Assembly (NCBI RefSeq): GCF_016863295.1
Contig: NZ_BOOP01000022.1
Location: forward strand, 124,001-188,000
DNA from: Planotetraspora phitsanulokensis
Lineage (GTDB): Bacteria; Actinomycetota; Actinomycetes; Streptosporangiales; Streptosporangiaceae
Length of the DNA stretch: 64,000 nucleotides
Direction of reading: 5' to 3'
The position numbers were made by a program, and so were the translations under genes. How positions within the stretch are numbered: the stretch's first letter is position 1; each line of letters starts with the position of its first letter. The notes under the pieces are model-generated. The model was not told where the DNA came from, ran no database searches, and saw nothing but the letters and a program-made list of their open reading frames with translations. This document shows, one piece after another, positions 48,354 through 52,335 of this stretch.

Positions 48354-49130
48354 CTAGCGGGCGGGGTCGCGGTTGTAGAGCTTCCTGGCCCACAGGTAGC
48401 CGACCAGGGCGATGCCGGCGCCCCAGGCGATGGCGACGGTCGCGTTGTCGCCCATCGGGGTGCCGAGCAGCAGGGATCGCAGGGTCTCGATGAGCGGGGT
48501 GAACGGCTGGTGCTCGGCGAACCAGCGCAGCGGGCCGGGCATGGAGTCGGTGGGGACGAACCCGCTACCGAACAGCGGCAGGAACATCAGCGGCATGGGG
48601 ATGTTGCTGGCGATCTCGACAGTGGGAGAGACCAGGCCGAGCGCGGCCGACAACCAGGTGAGGCCGAGGACGAACAGGGTCAGGATGCCGAGCGCGGCGA
48701 GCCACTGCAGAGGGCCGGTGGTCGAGCGGAATCCGAGCAGTACGGCGACGCCGCCGACGACGGCGACCCCGAGCAGGGTCTGGATCATGCTGCCGAGCAC
48801 GTGACCGGTCGGGACGGAGGCGCGGGCGATGGCCATGGTCCGGAAGCGGGCGACGATGCCCTCGGTCATGTCGGTTGCGACGGTCACCGCGGTGGCGGTG
48901 GCGGCCGAGGCGACCGTCATCAGGATGATGCCGGGGGTGACGTAGGCGAGGTAGTCGGCGCGGCCGCCGGCCTGGCCGAGCCCCGCGCCGAGGGTGCCGC
49001 CGAAGACGTAGACGAACAGCAGCAGGAAGATGATCGGCATGCCGATGATCATGAGGGTGAGGGTGGGGTAGCGGAGCATGTGCCGCAGGTTGCGGCGCAG
49101 CATCGTGGCCGAGTCGTGGAGCGCGTTCAT
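48354..49130 (-). CDS. ABC-2 type exporter permease, DrrB-like
   Basis: 258 residues with six membrane segments: ATMLRRNLRHMLRYPTLTLMIIGMPIIFLLLF, YVTPGIILMTVASAA, and the end WFAEHQPFTPLIETLRSLLLG, typical of daunorubicin-resistance DrrB-type permeases. It overlaps the ATPase gene by four bases and shares its fate. Lies inside the tRNA-bounded segment. It is intact, but its partner gene is frameshifted. Confidence 0.9.
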   Translation of the reverse strand: MNALHDSATMLRRNLRHMLRYPTLTLMIIGMPIIFLLLFVYVFGGTLGAGLGQAGGRADYLAYVTPGIILMTVASAATATAVTVATDMTEGIVARFRTMAIARASVPTGHVLGSMIQTLLGVAVVGGVAVLLGFRSTTGPLQWLAALGILTLFVLGLTWLSAALGLVSPTVEIASNIPMPLMFLPLFGSGFVPTDSMPGPLRWFAEHQPFTPLIETLRSLLLGTPMGDNATVAIAWGAGIALVGYLWARKLYNRDPAR

Positions 49131-50067
49131 CGGGCGGGTTCGCTTTCCTGGGTGAGGGCGAGGAAGACGTCGTCGAGGTCGGGGGCGTGGACGGCCAGTT
49201 CGTCGATGGTGACGGAGGCGCCGTCGAGCCAGTCGAGCAGCGCTCGCAGCGATCTGACGCCGCCGTCGCTTGGGACGTGCAGGGTGAGCGTCTCCTCTTC
49301 GCGCGAGATCGGGCGCAGCCCTTGGGACGCCGTCTCGAAGCCGTGTGGGTCGGCGAAGCGCAGGCTGACGTGGCCGCCGGGGACCAGGCGTTTAAGTTCT
49401 TCTGCGGTGCCCCGGGCGACCATCTTGCCGTGGTTCAGCACGGCGATCCGGTGGGCGAGCTGGTCGGCTTCTTCCAGGTACTGGGTGGTGAGGAAGATGG
49501 TGACGCCGTGGTCGGCGACCAGTCCGCGGATGATCTGCCACATGGTGCGGCGGCTGCGCGGGTCCAAGCCGGTGGTGGGTTCGTCGAGGAAGATGATGCG
49601 GGGGTCGCCGACGAGGGTCATGGCGAGATCGAGCCGACGTCGCATGCCGCCGGAGTAGGTCGCGGCGGGTTTGCCGGCGGCCTCGGTCAGGTCGAACCGC
49701 TCGAGCAGTTCCCGCGCCCGCTCGCGGCCCCGGGATCGGCCCAGGTGGCGCAGGTCGGCCATGAGGCGGAGGTTCTCCTCGCCGGTGAGCAGGCCGTCCA
49801 CCGCGGAGTATTGGCCGGTGACGCCGATCGCGGCGCGTACGGCCTGCGCTTCCCTGGTCAGGTGGTGGCCGGCCACCCGGACGTCGCCGCCGTCGGCGGA
49901 GATGAGAGCGTGGAGAGGATCTTCACCATGGTGGTCTTGCCTGCGCCGTTGGGGCCGAGGAGGGAGAAGATGGTGCCGGCCGGGATGTCCAGGTCGACGC
50001 CGTCGAGGACTAGGTGTTTGCCGTAGGTCTTGCGCAGGCCGGTGGCGGAGATCGCCGGGTCGGTCAT
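49127..50067 (-). pseudogene. ABC exporter ATPase, DrrA-like, broken by a frameshift
   Basis: From the ATG at 50067 the frame reads MTDPAISATGLRKTYG and Walker A GPNGAGKTT (about 36-44), then leaves the family sequence after KILSTL near 49905. In the next frame the protein resumes at ISADGGDVRVAGHHL and is intact to the end: YSGGMRRRLDLAM, IIFLDEPTTGLDP, TTQYLEEAD, DDVFLALTQ. The break falls in CTCTC where CTC would keep the frame, i.e. a 2-base gain at about 49904-49909. It may be a real mutation, a switch by slippage, or a sequencing error. Joined, it would be about 313 residues, normal for DrrA. Confidence 0.85.
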
Positions 50068-50109: not shown

Positions 50110-51087
50110 TCAGGCTGAGGTGGAGATCAGCGGGCGAGGCCCCGCGTCGGCGGCCTGCCGTACGGCTCGCCTGGCCGCGATGATCGTCCAGGCGGCGGCG
50201 AGCGCGGTGACCAGCGCCGTCGCGGCGAAGGCGGCGAGGGTGGCCGCGTCGGGGTGGATCAGGGACTGGCCGCGTGCGGCCTGCCAGGTCACGACGGCGT
50301 CCAGGCCGCTGTAACCGAGGGCCGCGGTGCCCACCAGGCGGGCACGCACCCGCTCGTCCCGCAACCAGGCGTACCGGGTGGCCAGGGCGGCCAGGACCGC
50401 GGTGAGGACGAGTAGCACCTGGATGCCGTGCAGGCCGAAGAAGTGCGGGACGCGGAAGTCCCCGCCGGTGACGCTCCAGTTGGTGAGGGGCATGCCGTGG
50501 CCGTCGGGGTCGCCGATGCCGTGGCCCTGGAACATGGGGATCCGGGCGCCGTTGGCGTCGGTGACCGTACGGGGGTGGATGTCGGTGGCCAACCAGTAGA
50601 GCGGGACGAGCATGCCGACGGTGGCCAGTCCCAGCCCGGCGCGGATCGCGCGGGTGAGTGCCGGGCCGGCGGTGCGCTGGATCAGCACCATGATCCCGAT
50701 GATCAGCTGCGCGATCAGGATGATCATTACGCCGTAGGTGAGGAACGGGACCAGCGCCACGGTGATGGGATCGCTCTGGTCGGCGTTGAAGTGGCTGATG
50801 GTGCCACGCCCCGCCTGCAGGGTGATGACGCCGACCTCGACGGTTGCGGCGACGGCGAACACGGTGCCGACCCACCAGCCCAGCCGCCTGCCCTTGGTCA
50901 GCTTCGACAGCAGCCAGGCGAGTGTTCCGGCGTAGAGGCCGAAGGCGAAGCCGAACTTCAACGGTTTGAGCCACACCGACTCGCCCAGCAGCGTGCGGTC
51001 GTCGATCAGCAAACCGGCAAGGCAGACGAACATCAGGGCGCACATGAGGCCCGCGCAGATCAGCAGCGGACGATGCCAGGACTTCAC
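50110..51087 (-). CDS. Multi-pass membrane protein of unknown function
   Basis: 325 residues from a GTG with GGAG upstream (VKSWHRPLLICAGLM). Eight or nine membrane segments, plus a conserved-looking polar loop GDPDGHGMPLTNWS and VPHFFGLHGIQVLLVL with several histidines, which could bind heme or metal. I do not recognise the family with confidence. It is first in the leftward run of three genes in the island, and its promoter overlaps a perfect inverted repeat likely bound by the divergent regulator. Confidence 0.75.
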   Translation of the reverse strand: MKSWHRPLLICAGLMCALMFVCLAGLLIDDRTLLGESVWLKPLKFGFAFGLYAGTLAWLLSKLTKGRRLGWWVGTVFAVAATVEVGVITLQAGRGTISHFNADQSDPITVALVPFLTYGVMIILIAQLIIGIMVLIQRTAGPALTRAIRAGLGLATVGMLVPLYWLATDIHPRTVTDANGARIPMFQGHGIGDPDGHGMPLTNWSVTGGDFRVPHFFGLHGIQVLLVLTAVLAALATRYAWLRDERVRARLVGTAALGYSGLDAVVTWQAARGQSLIHPDAATLAAFAATALVTALAAAWTIIAARRAVRQAADAGPRPLISTSA

Positions 51088-51124
51088 AGGAACTCCGATC
51101 CAGCTCGTCGTTTCGACATGCGAA

Positions 51125-51153
51125 AAGCTAGCTTGCATTCAGCTTTTCGTCAA
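51125..51153 (-). promoter_or_regulatory. Promoter with overlapping operator for the island genes
   Basis: On the minus strand, TTGACG (51153-51148) and TAGCTT (51130-51125) are separated by exactly 17 bases, a good housekeeping-type promoter for the membrane-protein gene starting at 51087. A perfect 9-base-arm inverted repeat (CGAAAAGCT at 51121-51129, AGCTTTTCG at 51141-51149) overlaps both elements, as expected of a repressor site. Confidence 0.65.
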
Positions 51154-51180
51154 CGCTGAATCTGCTGGTTGAGTGGGCAA

Positions 51181-51270
51181 ATAGGAGTCACTTGCAATGG
51201 CTTGTCGATGAACGCAAGTGGTTGACTTGCAATGAGGTGGGGGTGGATGCAAGACTGCCCGTCCGCGTAG
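51181..51270. repeat. Repeated TTGCA/TGCAA motifs in the divergent promoter region
   Basis: Between the membrane-protein and regulator genes lie CACTTGCAATGG (about 51189), CGCAAGTGG in the opposite sense (about 51213), GACTTGCAATGA (about 51223) and GGATGCAAGAC (about 51245); a further GCTTGCATTC sits inside the promoter at 51131-51140. Their spacing and both orientations suggest multiple binding sites for the adjacent regulator. Confidence 0.5.
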
Positions 51271-51292: not shown

Positions 51293-51982
51293 ATGCCCGG
51301 AGGCAGGCTGACCCACCAGGACCGCCGGCAGATCGCCGACGGCCTGGCGGAAGGGCTCACCTATACCGAGATCGCCGCCCGCCTGGACCGGCCGCTGTCC
51401 ACTGTCACGCGCGAGGTGGCCCGCAACGGCGGACCCGAGGGCTACCGGGCCGACCAGGCGCACGAGGCCACCCGGGAACGCGCCAAGAGGAGCCAGCCTG
51501 CCCCTGGGGAACGCGACGTCGAGGCGGTCGACGCCGTGGAGGAGCAGTTCACCGAGATCATGGTCAGCACCGGTCTGTCGCGGATGACCGCCCGCGTGCT
51601 CGCCAGCCTCTACCTCACCGACAGCGGCAGCCTTACCGCCGCCGAACTCACCCGGCACCTCCAGGTCAGCCCGGCCTCCGTCTCCAAGGCCATCGGCGAG
51701 CTCGAACAGCAGGAGATGGTCCGCCGCGAACGCGACCCGCGCCGGCGCCGCGACCGCTACATCATCGACGCCGACGCGCTCTTCCGCGCCTGGATGGCCG
51801 GCGCTCGCCAGAACGCCCTGCTGGCCGACTTCGCCCGCGGGGCGGCTGAGACCCTCGGGGCCGCCTCGCCCGCCGGGGGCCGGCTGCGGGACGTCGGCGA
51901 CTTCTTCGACCACGTCGGCCAGGCCATGCTGCAGGCGGCCGAGCAGTGGCGCGAGGCCTACAACGCCAAGCAAGAGCTGTGA
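51293..51982 (+). CDS. GbsR/MarR-like regulator with extra N-terminal helix-turn-helix
   Basis: 229 residues. The first 45 residues (LTHQDRRQIADGLAEGLTYTEIAARLDRPLSTVTREVARNGG) are a helix-turn-helix of the kind found in IS30 transposases. They are followed by a MarR/GbsR-type winged helix (about 95-165: MTARVLASLYLTDSGSLTAAELTRHLQVSPASVSKAIGELEQQEMV, then RDPRRRRDRY) and a helical C-terminus. Two DNA-binding domains in one chain is notable. Divergent from the ABC/membrane-protein genes and flanked by repeated TTGCA sites, it is probably their repressor. Confidence 0.88.
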   Translation: MPGGRLTHQDRRQIADGLAEGLTYTEIAARLDRPLSTVTREVARNGGPEGYRADQAHEATRERAKRSQPAPGERDVEAVDAVEEQFTEIMVSTGLSRMTARVLASLYLTDSGSLTAAELTRHLQVSPASVSKAIGELEQQEMVRRERDPRRRRDRYIIDADALFRAWMAGARQNALLADFARGAAETLGAASPAGGRLRDVGDFFDHVGQAMLQAAEQWREAYNAKQEL

Positions 51983-52182: not shown

Positions 52183-52301
52183 CCCGGACAGCAAGAAGGG
52201 GCCGACTTGGATGGGGTCGGCCCCTGCTGCTTACTGCCTCAACCAGGCGCGGAGGATAGGAGATTCGAACTCCTGAGGGGTTGCCCCCAACACGCTTTCC
52301 A
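52183..52301 (-). repeat. Right 119-bp direct repeat within tRNA-Ser(GGA) and its terminator
   Basis: The partner of 48192-48310. Its right edge lies in the anticodon loop of the intact tRNA gene (loop 52296-52302), its left edge about 14 bases past the terminator stem. Confidence 0.9.
52197..52225 (-). terminator. Terminator of tRNA-Ser(GGA)
   Basis: A 10-base perfect stem (AGGGGCCGAC with GTCGGCCCCT) around a 9-base loop, 25 bases beyond the tRNA 3' end on the minus strand, followed there by TCTTGCT. The same hairpin is present in the left repeat at 48206-48234. Confidence 0.8.
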
Positions 52302-52335
52302 AGCGTGCGCCCTAGGCCAACTAGGCGAATCCTCC
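52250..52335 (-). tRNA. tRNA-Ser(GGA)
   Basis: An intact serine-type cloverleaf: acceptor GGAGGAT/ATCCTCC, discriminator G, anticodon stem CACGC/GCGTG with loop TTGGAAA (anticodon GGA at 52298-52300, reads UCC), long variable arm TGGGGGCAACCCCTC and T-arm AGGAG-TTCGAAT-CTCCT. CCA is not encoded, unlike in tRNA-Ser(CGA). Its 3' half is duplicated at 48192-48310. Confidence 0.95.

Follow-up and report, generated by a model that had tools for sequence, protein, structure and literature searches.

Organization of the locus

The DNA analysed here is a 64,000-nt stretch of the Planotetraspora phitsanulokensis genome (hereafter the window). It contains a regulator gene that points rightward and, opposite to it, a leftward operon encoding a membrane-type protein, an ABC transporter ATPase and an ABC-2 permease (Table 1). 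The longest open reading frame of the divergent gene starts at 51138; we infer a GTG start at 51087, preceded by GGAG, which gives an intergenic region of about 205 bp. The ATPase frame breaks shortly past the Walker A (nucleotide-binding) motif and runs on in three congeners, and the break represents either decay or an assembly error. A protein resembling the product of the divergent gene (by eye) is also encoded divergently at two other loci (L053 and L056). Scanning ten divergent genes at other loci identified two beta-lactamase-fold proteins, two DUF4097 proteins, one DUF418 protein, one short-chain dehydrogenase, one P450, one ABC ATPase and two unmatched products, and given this variety the switch appears to be coupled to many targets. 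Just downstream of the regulator lie a tRNA-Ser (GGA) gene (52249-52335, minus strand) and a small SRP RNA gene (Rfam RF00169; 52431-52526, plus strand), which are followed by a DNA polymerase III subunit-like gene (by eye).

Table 1. Genes, domains, inferred promoters and predicted operator sites at the locus (positions within the window)
Feature	Position	Strand	Details
ABC-2 permease, DrrB-like	48354..49130	-	Pfam; NCBIfam Mtu_efflux/drrB below cut-off
ABC transporter ATPase, frame broken	49127..50067	-	Partial Pfam ABC_tran match, C-terminal frame
Divergent gene, membrane-type protein (by eye)	50110..51087	-	No Pfam match
Perfect 9-nt inverted repeat	51121-51129/51141-51149		CGAAAAGCT-N11-AGCTTTTCG; non-conserved
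Divergent promoter, inferred	51125..51153	-	TTGACG-N17-TAGCTT; -35 51153-51148, -10 51130-51125
Site 1, one-sided TTGC-N-TTCA half	51133..51154		Followed by GTCAAC holding the divergent -35
Operator site 2 (predicted)	51192..51217	+	TTGC-N18-GCAA; just upstream of own promoter
Operator site 3 (predicted)	51227..51252	+	TTGC-N18-GCAA; overlapping the inferred promoter of the regulator
Own promoter, inferred	51227..51256	+	TTGCAA 51227-51232, 18 nt, AAGACT 51251-51256
Regulator gene	51293..51982	+	229 aa, HTH_38 + MarR fusion; ORF, Pfam
HTH_38 (IS30-type) codons, residues 5-45	51305..51427	+	Pfam PF13936, E 1.5e-12
MarR winged helix (MarR_2) codons, residues 94-153	51572..51751	+	Pfam PF12802, E 6e-15

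The regulator joins an IS30-type helix-turn-helix to a MarR fold

An earlier note on this DNA had claimed that the regulator joins an IS30-transposase-like helix-turn-helix (HTH) to a MarR winged helix. Profile searches bear this out, since HTH_38 (47.4 bits) and PF12802 (55.6 bits) both exceed their Pfam cut-offs of 27, and both domains were matched in 40/40 members of our alignment A2, window included (E 0.001). The AlphaFold2 model (pLDDT 89.3, pTM 0.61) begins with a three-helix N-terminal domain that a linking helix connects to a MarR fold, with the HTH_38 helices at residues 8-19, 24-31 and 35-44, and the top Foldseek matches were 4nb5 (E 8.8e-8) and 1ku9 (E 1.7e-5). The profile of the GbsR-like choline regulator CudC (NF047500) reached 30.7 bits, under its cut-off of 218, and the DDE transposase profile (NF033563) reached 23.1 bits, under its cut-off of 80; the C-terminal part of the protein is MarR.

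The HTH_38 domain is 49% identical, over residues 6-77, to IS30 elements of another genome in our set (G008). Strong HTH_38 matches in 31 genomes were, where assignable, IS30-type transposases or pieces thereof, or fusions, and the fusion itself is present in 39 of the 196 sampled genomes of the class, its own genome counted. Two IS30-type transposases (L182 and L186) carry MPGSRL and MPGARL before their HTH, comparable to the MPGGRL of the regulator, and could stand near the source of its HTH domain. The regulator's own genome (contig C49) also contains an open frame of 148 residues that includes an IS30-type HTH (L243), probably the remnant of an IS30 element.

A conserved TTGC dyad lies upstream of the regulator

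Six TTGCA/TGCAA matches occur in 51121-51270, at 51133, 51192/51193, 51227/51228 and 51248, of which the two pairs are both strands of TTGCAA. This leaves three separate boxes outside the inverted repeat, together with a CGCAAG variant at 51213-51218, fewer than the "at least four more" originally counted. Six or more matches arose in 2 of 2000 dinucleotide shuffles, and six were found in none of 1277 tiles (150 nt wide, moved in steps of 50, placed without regard to the finding). The boxes pair, as the earlier note had not recognised, into 26-bp dyads of the form TTGC-N18-GCWA, the only two in the window being 51192-51217 (site 2) and 51227-51252 (site 3).

We compared 110 upstream regions, namely the window itself, the full-length rows of a 60-genome set (32 such rows, window included, at 37-100% protein identity) and 79 named rows, the named loci being the 80 best of 538 relatives. 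The N18 dyad was present in 77 of these regions and absent from 33 (shuffle mean 1.4, maximum 6), counts that are not independent, as the upstream regions are mutually related. Two loci, L033 and L099, were left out; for L033 the start had been wrongly assigned, and L099 has no dyad, and counting it as a miss gives 77/111. An N19 spacing was found in 51/110 upstreams (shuffle mean 1.55, maximum 6) and an N13 spacing, which by eye corresponds to the site-1 pair, in 44/110, while the remaining spacings from 8 to 29 occurred in 0-9/110; across N18, N19 and N13 the shuffle means were 0.9-1.75 (maximum 6). A site-1-like element was identified in the divergent promoter of 87/110 orthologue upstreams. 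The TTGC boxes are thus conserved beside orthologues of the regulator, one of the points on which the earlier note had made its proposal depend. In the orthologues, the dyads take up two positions, with median distances of about -105 and -63 relative to the start codon, and the gene-proximal site has the approximate consensus TTGCAATG-N3-TG-N2-GGTGAACGCWA. Our site-3 caller was permissive and made some doubtful picks (L002, L050 and L056, for example), so the consensus and the site tables are approximate.

The earlier note had also proposed searching the whole genome for the same sites. In the 9.17-Mb assembly (95 contigs), the exact full motif occurred twice, at sites 2 and 3 only, and allowing up to two mismatches added 7 matches, against 8 for a backward-read control. 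No regulon emerged from this search; because the exact motif is confined to this locus and near-matches stay at control level, the TTGC dyads are best regarded as a predicted local operator rather than the signature of a regulon.

Proposed mode of action

The 17-base-spaced TTGACG/TAGCTT hexamers that had been described as a promoter are indeed present, on the minus strand. The regulator's own -10 is weak in the window, and orthologues often have TATGGT, TATGCT or AATACT at this place (by eye). Neither promoter was called at threshold by a consensus promoter scan.

Our preferred reading, to which we assign a probability of about 0.7 on comparative sequence evidence, is that the regulator acts as a local autorepressor and as a repressor of the divergent transport operon, that its IS30-derived HTH reads a core resembling an IS30 end, and that domain and motif descended together from an IS30 element. 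According to this model, a dimer held through the MarR part would place each IS30-type HTH on one of the outer TTGC cores, which are 22 bp apart or about two helical turns, and the MarR helices on the inner bases of the operator. The dimer at site 3 would cover the regulator's own promoter from -35 to -10, and at site 1 a half-site would be bound within the spacer of the divergent promoter. The bound protein would then block RNA polymerase at both promoters, so that both would be repressed until a ligand, sensed probably by the MarR part, loosened it.

The predicted operator core resembles IS30 transposon ends

In gel shifts reported in PMC10916398, the HTH of the IS30-family transposase of ISApl1, taken by itself, bound the inverted repeats of that element. 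We collected IS30 loci from actinobacterial genomes and located their ends by matching inverted sequences on either side of the gene. Of 57 loci, 35 were analysed, mostly matches beginning at the profile start (the others were mainly fragments), and 23 of the 35 gave an accepted end pair (score of at least 12, lead of at least 3), some of these being near-copies of one another. GCAA stood in register in both arms of 15 of the 23 accepted pairs; a permutation null, run on a stricter count of 13, had a mean of 0.42 and a maximum of 4.

A matrix was then built without the regulators, from 16 distinct actinobacterial arms, with the transposase locus L182 excluded for the narrow lead of its end pair (22 vs 18.5). 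Its best site outscored 95% of shuffles in 42 of the 50 non-redundant upstreams of fusions, where 5% are expected by construction, and in none of 31 upstreams of relatives that have the MarR part only. With all 18 arms and the full set of 110 upstreams the corresponding counts were 83/110 and 2/31. Within the window, a single half scores high with the IS30-end matrix (12.25), and the runner-up reaches 8.09.

These data bear on a second explanation, in which the operator is truly autoregulatory and its likeness to IS30 ends arose by chance, through convergence on the short TTGC core. The shortness of the common core speaks for it, as do the 8 accepted end pairs of 23 that have no GCAA in register and the actinobacterial IS30 ends themselves, which are mostly unlike the right half of the operator between GGT and GCAA. 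We nevertheless consider convergence unlikely, since none of 300 column-permuted matrices reached the enrichment of the IS30-end matrix, and the E. coli IS30 left end (GGTCAACGCAAC) agrees at 11 of 12 positions with GGTGAACGCAAY, the consensus for the right half of the dyads at sites 2 and 3. For E. coli IS30 the left end alone was read, and the annotation of the copy used marks its C-terminus as incomplete; the ISCfr4 end reads GGTCGATGCAAC.

MarR-only relatives and the contribution of each domain

Relatives of the regulator that have the MarR part without HTH_38 allowed us to ask which domain reads TTGC. TTGC dyads with N18 or N19 spacing occurred in 0/31 of their upstream regions. A 16-mer palindrome like TTCACAAATTTGTGAA (at least 12/16 positions) was found in 23/31 and in 0/620 shuffles, the first count being partly circular, as the consensus was first noticed in 11 of these same upstreams. 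This 16-bp palindrome is likely the operator of the MarR-only family. Because the MarR-only upstreams are devoid of the dyad and carry another palindrome, the TTGC core goes with HTH_38. The fusion may have arisen once, in which case fusion against MarR-only is perhaps a single comparison.

A contribution of the MarR part at the inner bases was also considered. In site 3, the inner GTGAA is as far from the axis as GTGAA in the MarR-only operator, and in a 16-column MarR register the fit was weak for site 3 (p 0.02-0.03) and not significant for site 2 (p 0.3). These observations suggest that MarR contacts perhaps fall on the inner bases; GTGAA beside GCAA could also be part of the IS30-type site.

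In another reading, the MarR winged helix alone would read the TTGC dyad, with an HTH_38 that no longer binds DNA. Such a reading would accord with the position of GTGAA in site 3 and with the common binding of MarR proteins to dyads between divergent genes (PMC12838073; PMC3737563). It is quite unlikely in view of the missing dyad and the different palindrome of the MarR-only relatives, the TTGC core shared with IS30 ends and the high conservation of HTH_38, in which R33, S36, T37, R40, E41 and R44 are invariant in 20 sequences.

We also explored residue-base covariation as support for reading by HTH_38. For the base preceding TTGC in site 3, HTH_38 residues 23 and 35 headed the ranking; for the flanking bases of site 2 and those on the right-hand side, the top columns lay mostly outside HTH_38. 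On the tree, the class of residue 35 changed only twice, against 11 changes for the class of the flanking base. This line of support was rejected as a single-clade effect involving one flanking base only.

The inverted repeat first noticed at the divergent promoter

The perfect 9-base-arm inverted repeat that had first drawn attention to this region is present across the divergent promoter (51121-51149). A repeat of this kind arises in 0.8% of shuffles of the local sequence, yet 25 exist within the 64 kb. A search of 238 loci returned it at the window's own place only, and it is absent from a congener with a 99% identical regulator protein; since it recurs at no other locus, not even in this close congener, we regard it as probably incidental. 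As a candidate operator, it was ruled out by its non-conservation across the 238 loci.

It had further been suggested that the regulator could read two different site types, and the conserved elements instead turned out to be repeats of one operator, TTGC-N18/19-GCWA, and a one-sided version of it. A separate site type for each domain, with the inverted repeat as one and the TTGCA boxes as the other, is very improbable: the protein does have two DNA-binding domains, the repeat is perfect and locally unusual, and the MarR-only-type 16-mer occurs in 6/110 fusion upstreams, above the 5/550 of shuffles, but the repeat was seen nowhere else in the 238 loci and a separate MarR-type operator is missing, at the 12/16 threshold, from 104 of the 110. 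If both domains touch DNA, it is more likely that each operator is shared, with HTH_38 on the outer TTGC and MarR on the inner bases, than that they use separate sites.

Relation to known systems

Autorepressors of the MarR type are known, and so are IS30 ends. Among the closest parallels for the local repressor that we propose is the SCO3205 type of MarR protein, which likewise has a MarR fold, a divergent neighbour and operators before both genes (PMC3737563). The regulator differs from SCO3205 in its extra N-terminal IS30-type HTH, and its 26-bp TTGC dyad differs from the short TTnAAnnnTCAA consensus given there, and also from the 16-bp palindrome found in its MarR-only relatives. With IS30-family transposases it shares HTH_38 and the GCAA core, found in their ends and in its operators; it is set apart from them by a DDE transposase match below cut-off. 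The two TTGC-N18-GCWA dyads of the window both lie upstream of the gene. ZBED6 is likewise a transposon-derived protein reused in gene regulation, whereas the regulator is bacterial, fused to MarR and provided with operators still resembling a transposon end.

Our search of the open-licence literature returned no description of this fusion, nor of an IS30 HTH paired with IS30-end-like operators in a repressor. The locus would exemplify, in a bacterium, the seeming domestication of a transposase DNA-binding domain along with its target motif. It provides a predicted operator for a widespread regulator family on which we found no study in that literature, and yields, as a by-product, a predicted operator for the MarR-only relatives. 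With families that do and do not carry the fusion, the contribution of each DNA-binding domain becomes separable.

Possible origin and distribution

A more specific scenario for the co-descent of domain and motif, which we put forward tentatively and at less than even odds, is that a single event joined an IS30 left end, with its inverted repeat, its promoter and a 5' portion of its transposase gene, to a marR gene, turning transposase binding at the transposon end into a host switch that then spread in Actinomycetota with varied targets. In the fusions, the distance on the coding strand from the right core of site 3 to the start codon has a median of 41 nt (IQR 38-52, range 12-156); the distance from the GCAA core to the start codon, also on the coding strand, is 41 nt in E. 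coli IS30 and 32 nt in ISCfr4. Three compact actinobacterial IS30 elements (L137, L139 and L185) are compatible with this short-leader geometry, and 12 of the 15 actinobacterial elements examined have longer leaders, of 135-303 nt to the HTH. The core-to-start geometry fits the capture of a whole left end without proving it.

The fusion regulator and its TTGC boxes also occur at locus L059, on a contig labelled Singulisphaera sp. GP187. Singulisphaera is a planctomycete, and the occurrence suggests either transfer across phyla or contamination.
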